Source: Acholoe squamosa
Lineage: Eukaryota > Annelida > Polychaeta > Phyllodocida > Polynoidae
Reading direction: 5' to 3'
Length of the DNA stretch: 64,000 nucleotides
Assembly: GCA_949317995.1 (NCBI GenBank)
Contig: OX439050.1
Span: 50,221,777-50,285,776, forward strand
Below are positions 3,120 through 60,622 of the stretch, piece by piece (the stretch's first letter is position 1; each line of letters opens with the position of its first letter). The notes under the pieces were generated by a model. The model was not told where the DNA came from and made no database searches. It was given only the letters and a program-made list of their open reading frames with translations. Position numbers and translations under genes: made by a program.

Positions 3120-3356
3120 TACCGTAATCTCCCGCGTATAAGACGCGTCCTCTACGCCAAACAAAATGCTGGGGAGTCTTATAGGATGTACTTAAATTAG
3201 GGGTGCGTCTTATACGAGGGGTAATTTTACTATAGAAATGTACTGAATTTACAAAATTGGTACCTAAGAGGTGCGTCTTATACGCGAAAATGCATGTGCT
3301 GAGTTTGGGGTGTGTCTTATACGCGCAGTGCGTCTTCTACGCGGGAGATTACGGTA
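3120..3356 (+). mobile_element. Family A TIR element, complete, 237 bp
   Basis: A well-preserved forward copy, TA-bounded, with the left end CCGTAATCTCCCGCGTATAA and the right end ACGCGGGAGATTACGG. The motif TATAAGACGC (either strand) recurs about six times. Apparent open frames across it are by-products. Confidence 0.9.
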
Positions 3357-7775: not shown

Positions 7776-7940
7776 CATGGGCGTGGGAAGCAGTTTCAGA
7801 GTGGGTGGGACCAGGGGGGTTTTCTGCAATTTGTGACCTCCCTTTGCTTGACCTTTTAGTTTTGACCTTTTGATGAGTTGGCCAAACGTGGGGGGGGGGA
7901 CATGTCCCCCCTGCCCCCCCCCCTGCTTTCCGCGCCCATG
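7776..7940. mobile_element. hAT-like TIR element with 5-bp duplication
   Basis: Ends CATGGGCGTGGGAAGCAG and CTGCTTTCCGCGCCCATG, flanked by CAGTT on both sides (7771-7775, 7941-7945). An inverted copy lies at 25173-25326. The GC-rich G/C runs near the right end are part of the element. Confidence 0.7.
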
Positions 7941-8039
7941 CAGTTATTGTATTCCAATGTAAAGGAACCAGCTTTTATCACGACTCTGGGTGGCACAATC
8001 TGAGCTTATCACTATGTAGACAATGTCTGTGTGACACAA

Positions 8040-9080
8040 TTAGGGACATCGGATGGCACAATGTGGGCACTGGGACACTGTATGGCAGAATCTGGAATCT
8101 GGGTACAATGTGGAACAATGTGGGCACTGGGTGGTACAATGTGGCACTGGGTGGCACCATGTGGGCACTGGGTGGTACAATGTGGCACTGGGTGACACAA
8201 TGTGGGAACCAAGTGATACATTGGAGGCACAATGTGGGCACTGTGTGTACACAATATGGGCACTGTGTGGCACAATGTGGTACCATGTGGACACTGTGGT
8301 ACAATGTGGACACTGTGAGGTACAATGTGGACACTGTGTGGTACAATGTGGACACTGTGTGGTACCATGTGGACACTGTGTGGTAAATGTGGACAATGTG
8401 TGGTACATTGTGGACACTGTGTGGTACAATGTGGACACTGTGTGGTACATTGTGGACACTGTGTGGTACAATGTGGACAATGTGTGGTACATTGTGGACA
8501 CTGTGTGGTACAATGTGGACACTGTGTGGTACATTGTGGACACTGTGGTACAATGTGGACAATGTGTGGTACATTGTGGACACTGTGTGGTACAATGTGG
8601 ACACTGTGTGGTACATTGTGGACACTGTGTGGTACAATGTGGACAATGTGTGGTACATTGTGGACAATGTGTGGTACAATGTGGCACTATATCACACAAT
8701 GTGGCACTATATCACACAATGTGGACAATGTGTGGTACATTGTGGACAATGTGTGGTACATTGTGGACAATGTGTGGTACAATGTGGTACTATATCACAC
8801 AATGTGGGCACTGTGATGCACAATGTGCGCACAGTAATGCACAAAGTAGAAACTGAAAATGTTGATGCTTTCTGGCACAGTGTGGACAGTATGTCACAAA
8901 CGTGGCAGCTAGTTGGTGCAATGTGAAATTGTGTGGCATCATAATGTGGAAACTATGGCACATGGTGGCAGAATCTGGACACTGCGTCAGACATTATGGA
9001 CAGTATGTGGCACAATGTGGAAACTGTGTCACATAATGTGGGCACTGAGTGATACATTGTAGGCACTGTGTGATACACTG
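8040..9080. repeat. 21-bp minisatellite, unit GGTACAATGTGGACACTGTGT
   Basis: About 50 tandem units, most regular at 8290-8770, alternating CACTGTG/CAATGTG and ACAATG/ACATTG variants, worn at both flanks. Because 21 is a multiple of three and the unit lacks stops, long open frames appear on both strands; these are artefacts of the repeat. Confidence 0.9.
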
Positions 9081-20963: not shown

Positions 20964-21230
20964 TACAGTAAATCCTCATGTAGAGGACGCACGTTTTATA
21001 GACGAAACACCTTGGGTTGATGTAAATGATTTAAGACCCATCTGAGATTAAGTTTCGCTCATTTTAGTACTGTTCTATGGTATGAAATTCTTACCTATAA
21101 GCTGCACCCTGAGAACTAAACCAGTACTAAACCTTCAAAATTCCCCCCCCCCCCGATGTGCCTTAGATTTCCTTCAACTCAGGGTGCGTCTTATATGCAA
21201 GGTGTGCCTTATACACAGGAGATAACAGTA
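20964..21230. mobile_element. Diverged family A relative
   Basis: Left TACAGTAAATCCTCATGTAG, right GGAGATAACAGTA; the interior holds GGTGCGTCTTATATGC and TGTGCCTTATAC. TA-bounded. Older than the A copies. Confidence 0.6.
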
Positions 21231-26790: not shown

Positions 26791-27400
26791 GACCATCAGC
26801 CAGCTGCAAGGGGGCTTCTATTGGCCAGACTTAAGAATAGATGTCCCCCTCTGGTGTGCCAGCTGCAACCCTTGCCTTGCGGAGGAAGGCGCTACCTTGT
26901 GCCCTGATGGGCCATGTGGGGGTGGGCCTACCCCTCCAGCGTATAGCCGTCATGGGTGCCCTACCCATGTCCACAATTGGTAATATTCCGCCCCATGTGT
27001 CCCGCAAGCGGGAGTATCTCCCTTCGACTGGCGCTGGGCACTGCTATCTGGAGTGTTTCCTCCCTGCTGACCCTTCTGTGGCCCCAGTGTCGCTTACAGC
27101 TATTCAGGAGGCTCCGCCCACATTGGCCAGGAGGATGGTGGACGAGTTCATTTGTAGACTATGGGCTCCGGTTGAGATGTGTACAGACCAAGGCAATAAC
27201 TTCAAGTCAGGGTTATTCCGTGAAATCACCGTCCACCTGGAGAGAAGGCAAACATGCACTTGCTCTTTCAGACCACAAAGTGATGGCATGGTGGAGCGGG
27301 CAAATTGTACTATAGAAATATTACCTACTGACCCTGGGCCAGGAGACCCTTGCCCCCCTGGATTTAATCTACCTGCTAGAGCCTGACAGGGCAGGAGGGC
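26790..27400 (+). mobile_element. Integrase-like fossil segment
   Basis: Residues GGFYWPDLRIDVPLWC and CNPC recall the zinc-binding lead-in. LWAPVEMCTDQGNNFKS and FRPQSDGMVERANCTIE match the catalytic core region of Ty3/gypsy integrases. Broken; part of the fossil at 22585-27650. Confidence 0.7.
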
Positions 27401-32214: not shown

Positions 32215-34975
32215 GCATGGAGAGACTTTGTCTCAAAAATTAACAACACTCCAATCACCAAGATCTGGAATATGATCAGAAGAATGAAGGGGAAAAATGA
32301 CAGTCCCCAAATTCAGCACCTTAAATCCAATGGCTGAGACATTGCAGACACCAAAGCAGTAGCAGACCTCATTGGACTCACCATTGAAGAAATATCATCC
32401 CACAATGGAGGAACTCCTCACTTTAATCCTGTCAGAGAGGTTGAGGAAAGAGTCCCCATTTATTCGGTGATAATAATAACCATCCCTACAATTTACCCTT
32501 CTCAATCAATGAACTAAAGTCTGCTCTAAGCAATACCAAAAATAGCTCTGCAGCAGGACCTGATGACGTTCCCTATGAATTTCTGACAAAACTACCAGAG
32601 GCCTCCCAGGACTGCCTCTTAGGCATCATGAACCACATATGGGAGACAGGCAACTTCCCAGTACATTGGCGAGAGGCAACAGTTCTCCCATTTCCCAAAC
32701 CCGAAAAAGATCTATCAAATCCCAGGAACTATCGTCCTATAGCTCTTACAAGCTGTATCTGCAAGACCATGGAGAGAATGGTCAATGCTCGACTAGTCTG
32801 GTATCTTGAAAGCAAGAACATCCTCAATCCTTACCAGTGTGGGTTTTGTAAGGGACGATTGACACTGAATGCACTAGCCAGCCTTGAAACATATAAAAAA
32901 AATGCTTTCATAAAGAACCAACAAGTGGTTGCCATCTTCTTCGACCTTGAAAAGGCCTATGACACTACCTGGCAGTATGGGATATTGAAAGACCTAAAGA
33001 AGAATGGCCTGACAGGCCAACTCCCACGATTCATTCAGAAATACATCTCCAATAGGCGATTCAAAGTGAGGGTCAATAACACCTTTTCCGACTTCTTCAA
33101 CCAAGAGTCAGGAGTCCCACAAGGAGGCATCCTGTCAGTGACCCTATTCCTCCTCAAAATAAATGAAATCATCAAAGCTCTGCCATCAGAGGTTTGTCGG
33201 ACACTATACGTGGATGACTTCCTCATCTCCTTCCGTGGTAGAAGCATCTAGACCATTGAGAGGAAGCTACAACTATGTGTAACGAAACTGATGGAGTGGG
33301 CTGACAAGAATGGCTTCAAGTTCTCCAAGAACAAAACCTCCATCATGCACTTCCATTACGATTCCACCCCAGAACGAGAACCAGACATATACATAGACAA
33401 AGACAATTCTCAGCGCATTCCAGTCGTTCAAAGAACCAAGTTTCTTGGTTTGGTCCTAGACCGGAAGTTGTGCTTCAAAGAGCATATACATTACCTGCGT
33501 AAGAAATGCAAGAAAGCCCTCAACCTGCTAAGAGTAGTGGCACACCCATCCTGGGGAGGAGAACAAGCCACACTGCTAAAGCTCTACAGGGCCCTAGTTC
33601 GCTCACAGATAGACTATGGCCTATCCATCTATGGAGCAGCCAGTCCCTCATACTTTAAAATGGCTGAGTCTATACAAAACCAAGGTTTACGAATCTGCCT
33701 GGGAGCCTTCAGGACATCTCGCATCAAAAGCCTTGAAGTAGAGGCCAATGAACTGCCACTCCTCTTGAGGCAAGAAAAAGTATGTCTGCAATATGCAATT
33801 TGAATTGCAGCAAACACTAACAACCCTGCAACAACGCTCCTCAAAACACCTGCATATCAGGAGGAATATGACCGCAAGTGGTTTCTTGCTCCATTTAGAG
33901 TGAGAGTTACAAAATCACTGAAAGAAGCAGGCATTGATCTGAACGAAGTTATGGAGCTGACCATTGCAGAGAGACCACCATGGACACTGTACCAACCAGA
34001 AATCATTCTCAGCTTAGTCACACACAGAAAAGGAAACACATCAAGCACTGCTTACCAGGCAGCTTTCAATGAACTGCGCGACAATTATAAGGACTATGAG
34101 ACCATCTTCACTGATGGATCTCATATGGCAAACAAGACAGCCTCAGCAGCTGTAAAAGGCTTAGACTCTTACAAAGAACGTCTTCCAGATGACGCATCTA
34201 TCTACTCGGTAGAGTTGCATGCCCTCTACCTTGCACAAGACCATGTAGAAACCTCAGAGGCAAAATACCATCTGATCCTCTCAGACTCCCAGTCATCACT
34301 TAAAGCCATGCAAACAGGCGCATGGAACCACCCTCTAGTAAACAAAGTACTGGAAAGACACCACCAGTTAACAGAGGAGGGAAAGAACATCAAATATGGT
34401 TGGGTCCTGGCCATGTAGGGATTCAAGGAAATGAACAAGCAGACTCAGCTGCCAAGGATGCCCTGGGCCAGGCAGTAGCACAAATGCCACTTCCATCAAA
34501 CGACCTAAAGCGCAAGATCAACAAGTACATATATAACAAATGGCAAACATCATGGGACACAGAGGTGGAAAACCAACTCCAAAAGATCCAAACAAAGGTC
34601 AACATGACCAAACCCTACAAGTGCAAGGTCCATGGTTACAGAATAGGGAGAGAAAACCCTCCCAAGTGTGCCCACTGTCAGAACCCCTGACAGTGGAGCA
34701 CATCCTCATTGATTGCCAACAGTGTCCCTACAGGGCACAATACCACGTTTGTACAAGCTTGAAAGAACTATTTGAGAAACACAAGCCAGAAGAAATATTG
34801 GGATATATAAAAGCCCTTGGGCTCTACAATAACATCTAGTTGAAACCTGATGATTACTTCCCCCACATAGACAAATCATACCACCATTTCCACTGATAGT
34901 GCCTATCAACCTGTGAAGCACAGGATAGCCACTTAGTTCCGCTTAAGTGCTGTAAAACACAAATCAATCAATCAG
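32215..34975 (+). mobile_element. RNase H-bearing LINE (I/Nimb-like), 5'-truncated
   Basis: Reverse transcriptase blocks appear in order: YRPIALTSCICKTMERM, QCGF, FFDLEKAYDTTW, SGVPQGG and YVDD (33207-33218). RNase H follows with FTDGSHM, ELHAL, ILSDSQSS and GNEQADSAAK (34110-34460). A C-terminal CAHC...VEHILIDC zinc-binding end and a tail of AATC repeats (34958-34973) complete it. The endonuclease half is missing. The main frame is broken by stops at 33249 and 33801 and by frame changes near 34410 and 34688, so it is dead but only moderately old. An RNase H after the reverse transcriptase, and motif wording, point to the I group (I/Nimb); clade not tested. Confidence 0.85.
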
Positions 34976-40182: not shown

Positions 40183-40451
40183 TACTTTAATCTGCATAAA
40201 AGGCATGTCTTATATGCAGGGATAAATGTTCTCCTTGCAACACCAAGACCTTCCTTTTAATATGTTACACTCCCCTCTAATTCATAAAAGGGCATAGGGG
40301 CTCCAGGGGCCTTAGTTACACATAGCTTTTTTGAATTTTGAAAATCCATTTAGTAGAATAAAACCTATTGACATTTATTGTTACCAAATCCTAAACTTCC
40401 AGGTGTGTCATATACATGGGTTGCAGCTTATACATGCAAGATTGCCGGATA
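40183..40451. mobile_element. Family B TIR element, worn copy 3
   Basis: CAACACCAAGACCTTCCTTT, TTTTGAATTTTGAAAATCCA and TTTAGTAGAA blocks match the two better B copies; the ends have decayed. Confidence 0.6.
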
Positions 40452-41149: not shown

Positions 41150-42250
41150 CAAAGAGAGATATCTTAGACACAAAAAGAGATGATGTCTATTTGATGTATC
41201 TTTTTTCAAGTTTCATGAACACTCTGCAGAGGAATTTATATGTAACACCAAGTTATTCTAAGACGTTTTTCAGGTATTTCAATACCCATAAAGAGCCATT
41301 ACACATTTATCCTAGCCCAGAGGCCCAGGTGGGATGTTTGCATGAAATAAGATTGGTTCAAGCTACATCAGGTTTAAACGATCCAATAAGAGTAATTTAT
41401 GTTACTGCTCCCTCACCAGTCACCTTATTATCCATAAACTCATGATTTAAGGTCTTTACAAAAGCTCAATCAGTGTTTTGGATTATTGAGAGGATTAGGC
41501 GTACATGAAAGAAGTTAATACCAGTTACTTCAAAGGAACATCCTTGGCAAAGAAGGGACACCTAGTGGGCGAACTGTGAAACACCAGTTCAGTTGCTTTG
41601 ATACTAGATGTCACTGTTGAGCTGCAATAGGCTACATTAACATAGCAGCAGTATGAAGACATCTGGTGCTATTTTCATATAGCCTGTATAATATAGTACC
41701 TACTTCTGGGACTAACCACTAGTTGGAATGGCAGTTATAAGACAGGATGTAATAAATGATATAAAGGAAGTACTGTTATAATGCTCTTCAGTGAAATCAA
41801 TCACCGAGATAGGGAGGCAAAGTCACGTCAAATGTTCGCACAGTCTGGGCGCAGCATATTATCACACGCAAGCTTGAAGGGCCCGAATTTTTTTGGCCTT
41901 TGGATAACTTTTGAAAGAATGAGAGTTGAGCCAAAAAATTTCATATATGGTTGGTGGGGAGTCCAATAGAAACTCTGGTAATTTTAGAAAGATTTTTTTA
42001 ACATGGTTTATCACAAGACTTAGGCTCCCTATTGACAAAACCAGAAAAGTAGCCTACACAAGCCAGAATAATGCTTTTCCCTAATCCTGATGTATCTACC
42101 CTTTAGCAGTAAAAGAGAAATAATGTTACTACCTTATTTTCCTCAATACGTAATTATCAAGATAGAGTCATGAGTGGGTAAAAACTCTACTGGTAGGCCT
42201 GCCTCACATACGAGGTGCAACTTAAACGTGAGGATAAGGTTTTGTCAGAT
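41150..42250 (+). repeat. Segmental repeat S, copy 2 (without insertion)
   Basis: The part 41330-42250 is strongly similar to 42840-43745. It includes TTGGTTCAAGCTACATCAGG, TTTATGTTACTGCTCCCTCA and ACTAGATGTCACTGTTGAGC. The site GGAAGTACTG at 41767-41774 is the uninterrupted form of the 43284 insertion site. A block of about 220 bp (41795-42015) is present only here. Confidence 0.8.
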
Positions 42251-42839
42251 CCTTACATAGATCCTGTCTGAAGTTGGGGTGCCCCTTATAGGCAAGGATA
42301 ACATACTACATGTATCGGACCACCAAAACATTCTGCACTATAATTTAATGTAACTCATGCACCCGTAAAAGTGGAATTTCACCTTTCAAATCACTCAAAA
42401 TCATGAAGAGGCACATTGTCCCCCTCTCTGGGTGCCAGATCCAGGCGTCGTTCACCAACCCAGTTTTTCTGTACAGGCATATGTTTGAACCCATCCCCAT
42501 TTTGGCCTATTCTGCACACAATTAGTGATAATTCCCAAACTTTTTTTAAATAAATATTTTGGGATCCTAGACAAAGGAGCTGTCCCTTGTACTCCATATA
42601 TTCTGAATCACAACAGGTTAAACATGTTATCTATGCTTTATTTAAAAGTTTGCAATGATTTTGAACTCTAATATAGACCAATAACAGCCCTCCAAGTCCT
42701 AAATGCGTACACTTCGGTGTATTACCGGAAGTCACGTCATCATCAATGGTGGAACGATACCTACAGAACACCACTAAGCTTAGGCCCTATACCAAGGTAA
42801 CGGATTGTCTAATGGGCATGGCCATTGCTGGAGCTTGTT

Positions 42840-43745
42840 ACCAGGTGTGATGTTTGGATGAAATAATATTGGTTCAAGCTACATCAGGTTTAAACAATCT
42901 AATAAGAGTAATTTATGTTACTGCTCCCTCACCAGTCACCTTATCATCCATAAACTCATAAATTAAGGTCTATACAAAAGCTGAATCTGTGTTTTGGATT
43001 ATTGAGAGGATTACATGAAAAAAGTCAATACAAGTTACTTCAAAAATACATCCTTGGCACAGAAGTGACACCTAGTGGGCAAAATGTGAAACACCAGTTC
43101 AGTTGCTTTGATACTAGATGTCACTGTTGAGCTGCAATAGGCAACAATATTAACATAGCAGGAGTATGAAGACATCTGGTGCTATTTTTATATAGCCTGT
43201 ATAATATAGTACCTACTTCTGGGACTAACCACTAGTTGGAGTGGCAGTTGCAAGATGGGATGTAATAAATAATATAAAGGAAGTACCGTAAATCCTTCCG
43301 TATAAGACGCGGCTTTTACACCAAGACTTTACCCTCTGCATCCTACGGGATTCATCCCAACTCCAGGTGTGTCCTATATGCAAGGATTTTATACTATGTA
43401 ACAGTACTAAAGTGACCAAAATTTGACCTCAGATGCTTCTTTTATGATTTTGCCAAACGCAAGGTGCATCCTATACACGAGGGGCGTCCTATACGCGAGG
43501 ATTTACGGTACTGGTATAATGCTCTCTGACACTTGCCAAGACTGACAAAATCAGAAACTATAGCCACAAGCAAGAATCATGCTTTCTCCAACCCTGATAT
43601 CTACTCTTTAGCAGTCAAAGTGAACCAAATGTGACTAGTATCTTCTTCAATACATATCAAGATAGTCATTAATGGGTATTAATCTACAGTAATATCGGAA
43701 GGCCTGCCTCGCATACGAAACACGACTTAAACATGAGGATATCCA
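42840..43745 (+). repeat. Segmental repeat S, copy 3 (carrying a TIR element)
   Basis: Same order as copy 2; interrupted at 43284-43510 by a TIR element. Confidence 0.8.
43284..43510. mobile_element. Family H TIR element with proven TA duplication
   Basis: Ends CCGTAAATCCTTCCGTATAA and GCGAGGATTTACGG, 223 bp between TA pairs at 43284-43285 and 43509-43510. The interior holds GGTGTGTCCTATATGCAAGG and GGTGCATCCTATAC motifs. The other copy of the host segment has one TA at 41771-41772 and no element. Confidence 0.88.
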
Positions 43746-44100
43746 TTTGACATAAAACATTTTTTAACGTTAAAAACGTTTTTATTTGGTTCCTAAGTTT
43801 CCCAAACTTTTATTTAAGTACAAAAAACGTCAAAACATGTACCCGAAAAAAAGTAGCTTAAAACGCTTTTGCAAACTTTTTTTAATGTTGAGAAACGAAT
43901 TGTTGTGAAAAAAAAAACACGTTCAAAACTGGTTTACAACCGTTTTTCAACATGTTTTATTCGCTTAAACAAACACAAATAGTAAAGACATTTGGCCTGA
44001 ACTTAATATGCCTCCACTTTTAATATGTCACAGGATGAGCCCCTAAGAGGGCTTAGAAAATGAGTTCCATTGCCATGGTGTGTCAAAGAACAAATAACTT
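43746..44100. other. AT-rich DNA with ACGTTTT-type inverted phrases
   Basis: TTAACGTTAAAAACGTTTTT and related A/T-run phrases; nothing identified. Confidence 0.4.
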
Positions 44101-44959: not shown

Positions 44960-45410
44960 AAGAACACAAATATGATCAACAACAGTTTGGAGTATGTGAC
45001 TGTCACAAGATCAGTGTTATTTTCGGTTTCCGATCGTTTTTATTGGTGAAAAACTAGGCAGTGCCAGGGAGGTCCACACCCTCGGTATCACGCACTGCCA
45101 CTGGTGCAGTGGTGGACGGGACTCGGAGCTGTCATGAGCATGCCACGGCGGGCCCTGTGTGTTTGCCAGTCCCGGATCCCTATAATAACACCATGCGGGA
45201 GGAGTGGATTGTACCTTCATCATAGTTTGTCTTGACATGCCAGTGTTTGGTGGTACGTCTTACAAGTTAATACAACACGTTACTCGTTAGACCTATAAGT
45301 ATAACTACGTCTAAGCTCCTGTCACCTGTGGCTGTGCCTGTGGAACAAAATAAATTAATTCTTGAAGATGAACCATTTTTCTCATCTCTGTAAGGCCCCT
45401 CAGTACACTT
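44960..45410. other. Sequence right of the candidate first exon
   Basis: A CA/GC-rich patch with GGCAGTGCC...CACTGCCACTGGTG symmetry near 45058-45110. No family recognised. Confidence 0.35.
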
Positions 45411-45413
45411 TTG

Positions 45414-46020
45414 AGATAAGGAAAACGATTAACAATTAATTTTGGAAAAACTACTGATCCCATATACTCATGCTAAATAACATTAGAAAGCCCTTGTAAG
45501 GCTTGTTCTGGAGCATATGAAATAATTGTTCTTTGTTTGAGTTTCATGTCCCATCAAAATCTAGGGATGGGATCATGATACCATATCTCTTGGTCTGACC
45601 TCTCAGGCTACTCCGTAGATAAGGATAACAATCCACTTTGACAATTAATTCTGGCAAAACTACTAAACCCACATACTAATGCCATATAACATTTGAAAGC
45701 CCTTCTTTTGGGACATATGAAATAATTGCTCTTTGTTTGAGTTTCTTATTCTATTGAAATCTAATGATGTGATCATGATATCATATCTCTCAGTCTGACC
45801 TCTCGGGCTACTCCGCAGATAAGGATAACAATCCCACTTTGACAATTAATTCTGCCAAAACTACTTATCTCACATGCTAATGCTATATAGCATTAGAAAG
45901 CCCTTGTTTTGGAGCATATGGAGTAGTTGTTCTTTGGTCAAGTTTCACATTTAAAAAGAATCTAGGGATGGGATCCTGATACTAAATCTCTCAGTCCTAC
46001 CCCTCAGCCGACCGAAGAGA
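45414..46020. repeat. Tandem repeat, three units of about 200 bp
   Basis: Units start at about 45414, 45618 and 45820 with GATAAGGATAACAATC. Each has TTGACAATTAATTCTG, CATTAGAAAGCCCTTGT, GAAATAATTGTTCTTTGTTT and ATCTCTCAGTCTGACC. Units differ by roughly a tenth of bases. Satellite-like, non-coding. Confidence 0.85.
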
Positions 46021-46425
46021 TAATGATGATGATCTTATGTACCTCCATATATATACCTATGACTATGTACTAACCATGTAGCCATCATTATTCAAAAAAA
46101 AATAGGAAAAACCTCCAAAAAGTCATTGGACATGACTACAATGACCAAAGAGGGGCATGCATATTTGGCATCAAATTAAAGCTTAGAATGTAAGGAATGT
46201 CATTAACATGGTTAGATCAATACAGATACACCGATGTATTGGTAAGATAGATAATGAACTAATCTCTAACCTGACTTCCCATGGCCTATTATCTTACTCA
46301 TATTTCAGGCCATACTCGTCAGACAAGCTAATCTTTTTGATCTATCAATCACTCAGTATTAGTTGAACGTGGTGGTGCTCATTTTATAAGCTGTACCCCA
46401 ATCTTTGGATGAACCCATAGCAATG

Positions 46426-47450: not shown

Positions 47451-47452
47451 GA

Positions 47453-47876
47453 ACCGTAAATTCTCTCGTATTAGCCACACCCTCATATAAGCCACACACC
47501 CGCCTTTTGGAGAAGCTATAAGCCTCAGTCAAGGCTTAAAAATTGGCATTTTAGTACTGTTTTATAGTGTAAAATCCCCTGTATAAGCAGCACCCTCACT
47601 TTGGGCTGTTCCTTTAAGCAGCGGGCCTCCCTAGCCCACTTAAAAGGGTCTATTTCTCCTCTTTCCTATCCCCTCAGGATGTGTGTGGTGCACATATACG
47701 CGGGCACTGACACATTCCTCTGTGAAATTGTGTAATGTAGTTCTCACCATGAATATGACCTTAGCTGTCGAAATGGCGTTAAACCTCTATTACTCACTCA
47801 CTCACTCACTCCTTTAAGCAGCATTTTTATTTGGGTTCTGGTACAAGCCGCGGCTTATACGAGAGAAATTACAGTA
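47453..47876. mobile_element. Family H-like TIR element, interrupted by a SINE
   Basis: Ends CCGTAAATTCTCTCGTATTA and CGAGAGAAATTACAG; TATAAGC/TTATACGAG motifs inside. Split by SINE copy 3 at 47622-47810; without the insertion it would be about 224 bp, the size of the 43284 element. Confidence 0.75.
47622..47810 (+). mobile_element. SINE family E, copy 3, with 11-bp target duplication
   Basis: CGGGCCTCCCTAGCCCACTT head and (ACTC)n tail. CCTTTAAGCAG at 47611-47621 and 47811-47821. Inserted in a TIR element. Confidence 0.88.
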
Positions 47877-53596: not shown

Positions 53597-56500
53597 GTAA
53601 GTGATTTAACTCTAAGTATTGAGGATTACTGGGGATATTTGTTTTTAGAACACTATTTTAGAATCATGGTGAAATATATCTGCCATGGACCAGGGATGTA
53701 ATTTTTCAGAATTTTGTCTGATTTCAGAATTTTCTAAACTCATCATGACTATAGATTTTCCTATATGTCCCTTCCTTGATCATAGTTTCTTTCAGTGCTT
53801 AACAAAAAATTCAGAACTTCTTTGTGTCTTCTCTGTGTTTTTCGTACCGCCCTGACGTACATCCCTGATCATAGTGATGGACCTAGCAACAGTACTGACT
53901 AGTACAATGGGGGAGGGGCTGTTGGATTTTTATTAAGCAAAATGGAATACCTTATAGAAACCGAATTTATGATTAGACAGGTTAGGATGGGACTCTACAT
54001 CAATATCTCTACCACTACTGCCCTAAATTCTCTCGTATAAGCCGTGGAATCCAAAACAAAATTAGGCTTATAGGATTGGCCAAAAGTCTGGGTGTGGCTT
54101 ATACGAGGGTATTAAAGTACTATGGAACTGTATTAAACAACAAAATGTCAGGCCTCATATGCAGCTTATACCAGGGTATAAAAGTCAGGGAAAGTCAGGG
54201 TGCGTCTTATACGAGGGTGTTTACTGCTATAGCGAGCAGTACACACCCTGAGCTGTTTGTGTTGTAAATCACACGTTCACTGGTTTTCTGTCTAACAAGT
54301 GCGTTAGCACTTAATTATAGAAATATTCCAAATGTAGCAGATAGATTTCCTTCCTTATCTGTGGATATATTCCTTATCCTCTTACATATCAGATTATTAG
54401 ACTATAAGGGCCACAGAATGTTTTGATGGCCTGTGGTCATGTTGCATAAACTTGCAAACTCAATTTTAATGTTAATCGTATATGCTGAAATAGGGAAACA
54501 AATACTACGGTATTGATATTGTCCAGTGAGAACATAGCTGCTCTCACGTGACTACCCTCTCATATAACAGCTCCACAAGGGAAGATGAAGACCTCTCTCA
54601 GATTAACCTTGAAATTTCACTCTATACATTTCATTCTGTATAAATATAACTAGCGTACAATTCTTATGCAATAAGAAGAATTTCACCTTCAATTCTGTGT
54701 GATGTTGAAGGCACTATGCATGTTATTGTTGATATGGCATCAATCTGTAAAAGGTCCATGGTTCCTCTGTTAGATAAGGTGTGACCTTGTGTAAGGTATC
54801 ACCCTTTAAGGGCCCCTGATGCATTAATGCATCATGCCCATTGGTCGTCATGATGCACCAATGAAGTGCTGGCGAGACTGCTCGCCAGCACTTCATTGGA
54901 GCATCATGCCGACCCTCCGGGAATTTATGTATCAACCCTGTAGGGTCAGCATGATGCACCAATGAAGTGCTGGCGAGACTGCTCACCAGCACTTCATTGG
55001 AGCATCATGCCGACCAATGGGCATGATACACTCCTGCATTAAGCGACCTTTAAAGGGTTAAACCACACAGTGCCATCAATACTATGTCCCTTTATCGACA
55101 TGATGTATTACAACATTATTTAATCTCTATAATTGAAATATTTCTTAATGGCACCATGATCCAATAGCGACGGCGAGTTACGCGCCAGCTGTGCATTGGT
55201 CCATTATACTTTTGAATCTTTGAAAGAATGAGCACCGTAAATTCTCCCGTATAAGCTGCAGCTTTTATGCCAATCAGAGGCTTCCTATGGCTTATGGACT
55301 GTCCCGAAAGTCAGGATTCTGCTTATGAATACGCAGACATTTTACTCAATAGTACTAAAAATAATTCATTTCCAGGCTCCAGCTGTGGCTTAATAACTAT
55401 CCTCCTAAAGTCAAGGTGTGACTTATATGCGGGTGAGCTTTACAGCCACATCCATTTTTTTTTATGATGTTTATCCATTTAGACAATACCATTGAGACAT
55501 AAAGTTGATACTAGTTACTACCTTCACTTTCAATATCATGAGTTCAGGTACCATACCTTACACAAGCATACGCGTGTGTTTAAGTGATGTTCTAAATGAC
55601 TGACTTTGGAAAATGTCACCCTTTTATGAACATCTCTGATCAAATAATTACAGTTGTTTTTTTTTTGTGTAAATGCAAAGGGCGTGTATAGGTCCATCTA
55701 CACTATATTAATTTATTTAGTTCTTAAAAATACAACAGAGGAAAATAAAGTATGCCGAATTCTTTATAACTATTTCAGGAGATAACAGGATACTGTCTGA
55801 GTCGGCCGAGAAACATGCTGACTTGGATTGGTATAATTTGTACACTTGGATTCCTGCGTCTTGTGTTCTACTGGAAACCTGAGTGGATGCTCCACTGTAC
55901 ACACATCAAATGCAGCCTTGGACAGGCAGAGAAGGTCCTCCTACAGGTAGGTACAGCATGGGATGTAAAAGAACCCTTGTCTAGGTGAGTACAGCATGGG
56001 CTATATAAAAGAATCCTTGCCTATTACTGAATAATGTGGCCCTAAGCAGATCTGACCTAACCCGACTTAACAATCAGATAACTTTGGGGCCATCCATAAA
56101 TGACATAAAACCAAGTTTGACCATTTTTTTACCCCCCTCGTCATGTTTTTTTACCAATTTTGGAGGGCTGAAGGTATATGGAAAATTACTCCCATCATGC
56201 CGGGCCTGACCTCCTCTCCAGCATGACGTCAGTTAAGGATGGCCCCTTTGGAGTATGGAACTCTCTCAAGAGTGTTGGAGGGACTCTGAACTATCTGTTG
56301 TTCATAGGTTGTCTACTGTCCCTGCACCTTTTAAAACTTCACAGCTTAGTCATGCTGTATGATTAATTATGCTTGATTTAGGTGAAGAAATGATTAAACT
56401 AGACATGAATGACAGAGTACTATTAATGTGTGAAGATAACGCCATAACATGTTTCTATATAGATTTGTGGTTAGAAGAATCAGGATTATGAAAAGTAAGA

Positions 56501-58433: not shown

Positions 58434-58813
58434 ACCGAGCCCTGGAGAGGACATACGTTTTCTACACTTTTTTTTCATTTTCGTTTCCGCAACTTTTTAT
58501 TTTCGTTTTCGCAACTTTTATTTTCGTTCCCACAACTTGTACTTTTGTCTCCACAACTTGATAGGTTTGTTTTGTGCACAGTCACTTAATTGTGAATTTT
58601 AAGTTGCGGAAACAAAGATATAAGTTGCGGAAACAAAACATTAAGTACGGAAACGAAATATAAACTTGCAGAAATGAAAAAAGAAGTTGTGAAAACGAAA
58701 ATAACAGTTGCGAAAACAAAAATAAAAGTTGCGAAAACGAAAATAAAAGTTGGGGAAACAAACTCTATAAAAAAAAAATGTGTAGAAAATGGATGTCCTT
58801 TTAGGGGCTCCGT
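58434..58813. mobile_element. TIR element filled with inverted 21-bp tandem arrays
   Basis: The left ACCGAGCCC...AGGACATACGTTTTCTACAC mirrors the right GTGTAGAAAATGGATGTCCT...GGGCTCCGT. ACTAACC flanks both sides (58426-58432, 58814-58820). The left arm has about four units of TTTTCGTTTCCGCAACTT; the right arm has about seven units of the complement AAGTTGCGAAAACGAAAATA. Open frames here are repeat artefacts. Confidence 0.75.
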
Positions 58814-59890: not shown

Positions 59891-60038
59891 AGTGCTGCTG
59901 TAGGGGCCAGCTCTGCCGTAAGGCCAGCAGCCCCGTTTCTGGAGATCCCAGCCCCCAGGGGCTGGCATCCGGTGGTAGCTCCCCCTACGTGTGTATTATA
60001 CCGATCCAGATGTAGATGGAAGGTAGAGAATGTCAGAC

Positions 60039-60110
60039 GGGGAAGTAGCTCAGAGGAAGAGCTTCTGCTTCGAAGTTGGAGGGTCCCGGGTTCGAGTCCC
60101 GGTTTGTCCA
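60039..60110 (+). ncRNA. tRNA-like sequence 1 (SINE head or pseudo-tRNA)
   Basis: 72 nt with D arm GCTC-AGAGGAA-GAGC and T arm CCGGG-TTCGAGT-CCCGG, both perfect. The acceptor has one mismatch and two G-U pairs, and the anticodon stem is poor. The loop TTCGAAG would give anticodon CGA, but the 5-nt variable loop does not fit a serine tRNA. TTTTT at 60116 could stop Pol III. Best read as a tRNA-derived head. Confidence 0.55.
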
Positions 60111-60622
60111 AAGACTTTTTCTGCCGACCTCTACACTGGTGGAGAAACCGAGTTGGTCCTGCCCTGCAAGGGGGGACTACGAGAACTCGGTGTAGGTGCC
60201 TGGAACGGTATAATACAGATACGATTCTACCCTGGCAGTACTGTGTACTGGTAGGTCAACTGGGAAGTCAGGAGTGCCTCTCACTGCTTGATAAAGCCCA
60301 ACCGATCTGGTTGGGAGGAATGCTTGGTGCTGGTTGGCCATGGTTGAAGCTGGTTGGGAGGAGTGTAGGGGCCAGCTCTGGCTGTGAGTCCATGGTGGTA
60401 TGCCATCTGTCCCCGTTCCGGTTGCACCAGCCCTCAGGGGCTGGTCAGCCGGTATAAGCTACCCCCCGTAGGTAGGGAGGAGTGTAGGGGCCAGCTCTGC
60501 CGTAAGGCCAGCAGCCCCGTTTCTGGAGATCCCAGCCCCCAGGGGCTGGCATCCGGTGGTAGCTCCCCCTATGTGTGTATTATACCGATCAAGATGTAGA
60601 TGGAAGGTAGAGAATGTCAGAC

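Follow-up and report, generated by a model that had tools for sequence, protein, structure and literature searches.

A 223-bp element, H1, very probably a non-autonomous DNA transposon (MITE) inserted at a TA, was found in one of two copies of a duplicated segment within the 64,000-nucleotide stretch of DNA analyzed here (the window), and the other copy holds the corresponding site empty. Duplication of the TA target is well supported, by the set of related copies in the window rather than by the filled and empty pair alone.

The two segment copies, S1 (about 41325-42247) and S2 (about 42841-43752), both on the forward strand, were delimited by self-comparison and lie only 1.5 kb apart. Overall identity was 73.6% over 963 columns, with the inserts of both copies counted. 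In S1 the sequence GGAAGTACTG is unbroken at 41766-41775, and the empty site has the layout AAAGGAAG-TA-CTGTTATAATGCTCT, with a single TA at 41771-41772 located from the S1 reading and the flank alignment. The site given in the original prediction was correct, but its range of 41767-41774 was two letters short. The filled site in S2 has the layout AAAGGAAG-TA-(CCGTAAAT...ATTTACGG)-TA-CTGGTATAATGCTCT, with the left TA at 43284-43285, the element at 43286-43508 on the forward strand and the right TA at 43509-43510. Both of these TAs were placed from the S2 reading, the alignment and the junction repeats, and no strand was assigned to any of the three. The net gain of S2 over S1 at the site is 225 bp.

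S2 flanks fused at one TA were aligned with S1, giving 426 identical columns of 466 (91%) in an alignment that runs straight across the site. The ends of the gap in the S1/S2 alignment are the ends of the terminal inverted repeats (TIRs) of H1. Clear colinearity extends only a short way to the right of the site, stopping 15 letters past the TA. Over 17 letters counted from the right-hand TA, S2 agrees with S1 at 16 positions, against 13/17 at the next best places on both strands of the window, and the pairing of the two sites is therefore not a chance match. The predicted empty and filled pair, with a gap coinciding with the TIR ends, was thus borne out. It is the only such pair in the window: when the 150-bp flanks of each of the remaining 10 two-ended copies were fused, no empty site was matched there (E 0.01).

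The suggestion that S1 and S2 would align with one clean 225-bp gap did not hold. A second block of about 222 bp, starting about 37 letters past the empty site, is present in S1 and absent from S2; this reciprocal insert had been overlooked. The insert is MITE-like, apparently unrelated to H1, and was placed at 41811-42030 (ends uncertain by about 2 bp, no strand assigned) from its break points and an inverted repeat. With one long gap allowed, the best break points were 41809-41811 to 42030-42032 with a score of 41.5. The best rival placement scored 40.5 and, as this margin is thin, the case for the insert is carried by the 16-nt inverted repeat at the same place (41809-41824 / 42017-42032, 14/16 complementary). 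Ends at least 14/16 complementary and 215-229 bp apart were found at 77 of 956,685 position pairs in the window, comprising 41 in family A copies, 7 in H1, 1 in the S1 insert, 3 in a 201-bp tandem array (45676-45896) and 25 at 58477-58762 and 59991-60218, two stretches with strongly complementary ends of this kind. The tandem array as a whole (45384-46034) has a unit of about 201 bp in three copies, two of which share 66% and 76% identity with the third, the reference copy.

A second site, empty in S2, is probably occupied in S1. The junction of the insert is most simply read as a duplication of AT rather than TA, the candidate duplication being 41809-41810 / 42031-42032 where S2 has AC; this reading concerns one copy in a stretch of only about 74% identity. 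Alignment is poor over the 21 letters that separate the clear S1/S2 match from the insert. A search of the window for relatives of the insert turned up nothing convincing (best other match E 0.14), and its fold does not stand out from those of its shuffles (z -1.14, with 28 of 200 scoring as well or better). Because H1 and the S1 insert are nearly equal in length, the two segment copies differ little in total length.

H1 was characterized by its TIRs, its TATAAG-type motifs and its match to the family A profile. The TIR, CCGTAAWYYCYYNCGTATAAG, starts with CC; 25 of 30 letters are matched when the TA is counted, and the first 13 are perfect. Compared with the end consensus, the left end of H1 agreed at 19/25 and the right end at 20/25 letters. 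The family A profile, built from 7 copies, matched H1 over its whole length (positions 1-237, E 7.6e-20), and the profile of family B (two copies) gave partial matches only. Judged by these profile matches, H1 is related to, though diverged from, family A, which is represented in the window by 7 two-ended copies of 237-242 bp counting the TAs. The relatives of H1 itself in the window are all diverged. A family B-related fragment at 40189-40445 (profile E 1.4e-30) was also noted and has no clear TA-flanked ends. The single-strand fold of H1 was better than those of all 200 shuffles (z -3.55), as was that of the sole other copy folded, the family A copy at 3120-3356, relative to its own shuffles (z -5.99).

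Matches to GTATAAGACGC were counted at up to 3 mismatches, in counts that include some double hits since the reverse complement overlaps the motif with 3 mismatches. H1 contains 7 matches (mean of 200 shuffles 0.55, maximum 3), and each of the 7 family A copies contains 8 to 10 (shuffle maxima 3 to 5). Within family B, copy B2 has 6 matches (shuffle maximum 3) and copy B1 has 4, which is no better than its best shuffle. Across the whole window TATAAGACGC was observed 65 times at up to 1 mismatch against 1.9 expected. The elements may be viewed as a TA-targeting MITE group, to which no family name is assigned here; as a speculative suggestion, which we consider rather doubtful, the transposase may recognise the many GTATAAGACGC copies that are distributed along the element in both orientations, as well as the TIR. 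Titles and abstract openings in the literature on TATAAGACGC gave no transposon link, and no paper on MITEs containing the phrase 'subterminal repeats' was among the matches listed, a narrower search giving no paper at all. The exact TIR 27-mer had 0 matches in a viral contig collection, and a degenerate 26-letter TIR pattern had 0 in viral contigs and 0 in bacterial and archaeal genome contigs, which is a weak test for a eukaryotic-looking window.

Since the empty site itself contains one TA, this dinucleotide does not belong to the element alone. The direct repeat at the H1 junctions is GTAC, with G before the left TA and C after the right TA, and the element itself starts with C and ends with G; consequently the S1/S2 pair alone would allow a duplication of 2, 3 or 4 letters. 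The pair had been taken to fix the element ends. This is correct once other copies are added, but the junction repeat prevents the pair alone from fixing either the ends or the size of the TA duplication. Junctions were therefore compared among 11 two-ended copies, H1 included, obtained with a scan whose query held the TA and which is thus biased towards TA; the scan returned 13 rows, of which 2 were dropped as alternative pairings sharing an end with a listed copy. Six of the 11 copies had a maximal junction repeat of exactly TA, and 4 had TA plus extra letters (GTAC twice, TAC and TACC). The remaining copy, of 425 bp at 47452-47876, has AA on its left and a junction repeat lacking TA. A diverged stretch at 20964-21230, with related ends (16 and 19 of 25) and TA at both, is perhaps compound and was left out of the 11 copies.

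As the query of the first scan contained TA, a second end scan was run with a TA-free query and matches scored out of 25, the consensus still being built from TA-bearing copies. At a threshold of at least 20/25, 22 of 23 ends were preceded by TA, and the one that was not lies at 54226 on the minus strand; the frequency of TA in the window is 7.5%. At a threshold of at least 18/25 the count was 26 of 32. Two of the 6 non-TA ends at this threshold, 12047 and 50435, are motif copies within other elements, and the remaining 4 (47454, 54021, 54226 and 55235) are ends of diverged copies; in the diverged copies at about 54021-54226 and 55235-55442 neither end has TA. Looser thresholds gave 27/46 (at least 17), 30/59 (at least 16) and 30/85 (at least 15) ends after TA, in sets that include many internal motif copies. 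Five Markov-1 random 64-kb sequences yielded 0 ends at thresholds 17, 18 and 20, 1 to 3 ends at 16 and 6 to 17 at 15. The predicted TA target duplication is supported by the 22 of 23 strong ends that follow TA together with the 6 of 11 junction repeats that are exactly TA.

The assignment of H1 as a MITE is consistent with its length of 223 bp, within the 100-600 bp of the definition given in the available text of PMC4495683, with its TIRs and with target duplication at one empty site, the 2-bp size resting on the other copies; multiple copies of similar length are present through the related family A. Stop-to-stop ORFs of at least 120 aa number 27 in the window; the 16 that were scanned contained no transposase family, and many of the other 11 are low-complexity. 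Domain matches in the scanned ORFs were to reverse transcriptase, twice, with matches below the cut-off to RNase H and a reverse-transcriptase zinc-binding domain. Reverse transcriptase remains and a weak RNase H match extend over several ORFs at 32445-34690, as of a non-LTR retrotransposon. An ORF at 26841-27386 weakly resembles retroviral-type integrases (best E 0.05) without a Pfam match and is perhaps the remnant of an LTR retrotransposon, and repetitive low-complexity sequence at 7877-8926 contains open frames overlapping in several registers.

The transposase acting on H1 would probably belong to the Tc1/mariner (ITm) group, this step being taken on its own, and H1 would have moved by cut-and-paste transposition. 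H1 has the TA target duplication that is described in the accessible part of PMC7325037 as common to the IS630-Tc1-mariner group, pogo included, and is filed here as ITm-like by target site only, with which this placement is compatible. The original likening to Tc1/mariner is accordingly to be read as compatible with the TA target and the TIRs, the two features that could be tested, rather than as shown. Membership of another superfamily targeting TA or AT, such as ISL2EU of PHIS, is unlikely. ISL2EU likewise makes a 2-bp duplication of A and T, although the sections available of PMC4482050 describe duplication of AT within A-AT-T and TIRs that usually start with GG, whereas the junction letters of H1 are TA and its TIR starts with CC. 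H1 has structural parallels among known MITEs. Submariner_Ps1 of Pandoravirus salinus, an ITm-derived MITE described in the portion of PMC4495683 available, is close to H1 in size (243 bp vs 223 bp) and shares with it TIRs, TA duplication, no coding capacity seen and one paralogous empty site, which is the evidence for TA insertion of Submariner MITEs; its TIRs are about 100 bp, against about 30 in H1, and the likeness is one of structure, TIR letters not being compared. Stowaway MITEs of grasses, as presented in the text available of PMC1925063, are also short, have TIRs and a TA on both sides (TIR letters again not compared), and are linked to Tc1/mariner, as is proposed for H1.

The original prediction that one of two copies of a duplicated segment had received the element was upheld. 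The further claim, that the segment was duplicated before H1 inserted, offers the simplest reading without being proven. S1 would represent an unoccupied site in its pre-insertion state rather than a vacated one: no footprint or TIR remnant was found at 41771-41772, and because the empty copy lacks a footprint, segment duplication followed by H1 insertion is the simplest order. Identity between S1 and S2 up to the site is 88-96% in six 75-column blocks and 91% (412/451) for the left side as a whole, compared with 74% (158/214 columns) beyond the S1 insert on its right. This step could be accounted for by conversion of the left part or by a difference in constraint, and it leaves the order unproven. 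It also makes conversion between the copies conceivable, by which an element predating the duplication could have been lost from S1 through gene conversion from an empty copy; precise excision would give the same result, and the pages available of PMC7913693 report that excision of Tc1/mariner elements can leave nothing behind (0-3 bp for ZB). The same source gives 2-4 bp as the usual Tc1/mariner footprint, and the inferred Stowaway footprints described in part of PMC1925063 are 1-4 bp TIR fragments next to the TA, in contrast to the empty site of H1, where no such remnant is seen, which makes a vacated S1 improbable. A coincidence, or an assembly artefact placing two haplotypes side by side, might be suspected from the distance of just 1.5 kb between S1 and S2. 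The divergence on the two sides is above that expected of two alleles, and elsewhere in the window related elements sharing these ends lie in flanks not matching S1 or S2, so that this explanation is highly improbable.

Insertion of H1 into one copy of an already duplicated segment is accordingly retained as the simplest reading, and the S1/S2 pair is an ordinary but clean case of a familiar class of mobile element. Evidence from paralogous empty sites is standard for TA-inserting MITEs and has already been published, as the text available of PMC4495683 illustrates. The pair shows the target at which an element group common in the window inserts and, together with the other copies, gives the ends of these elements, which is useful in annotating them and in tracing the autonomous partner.
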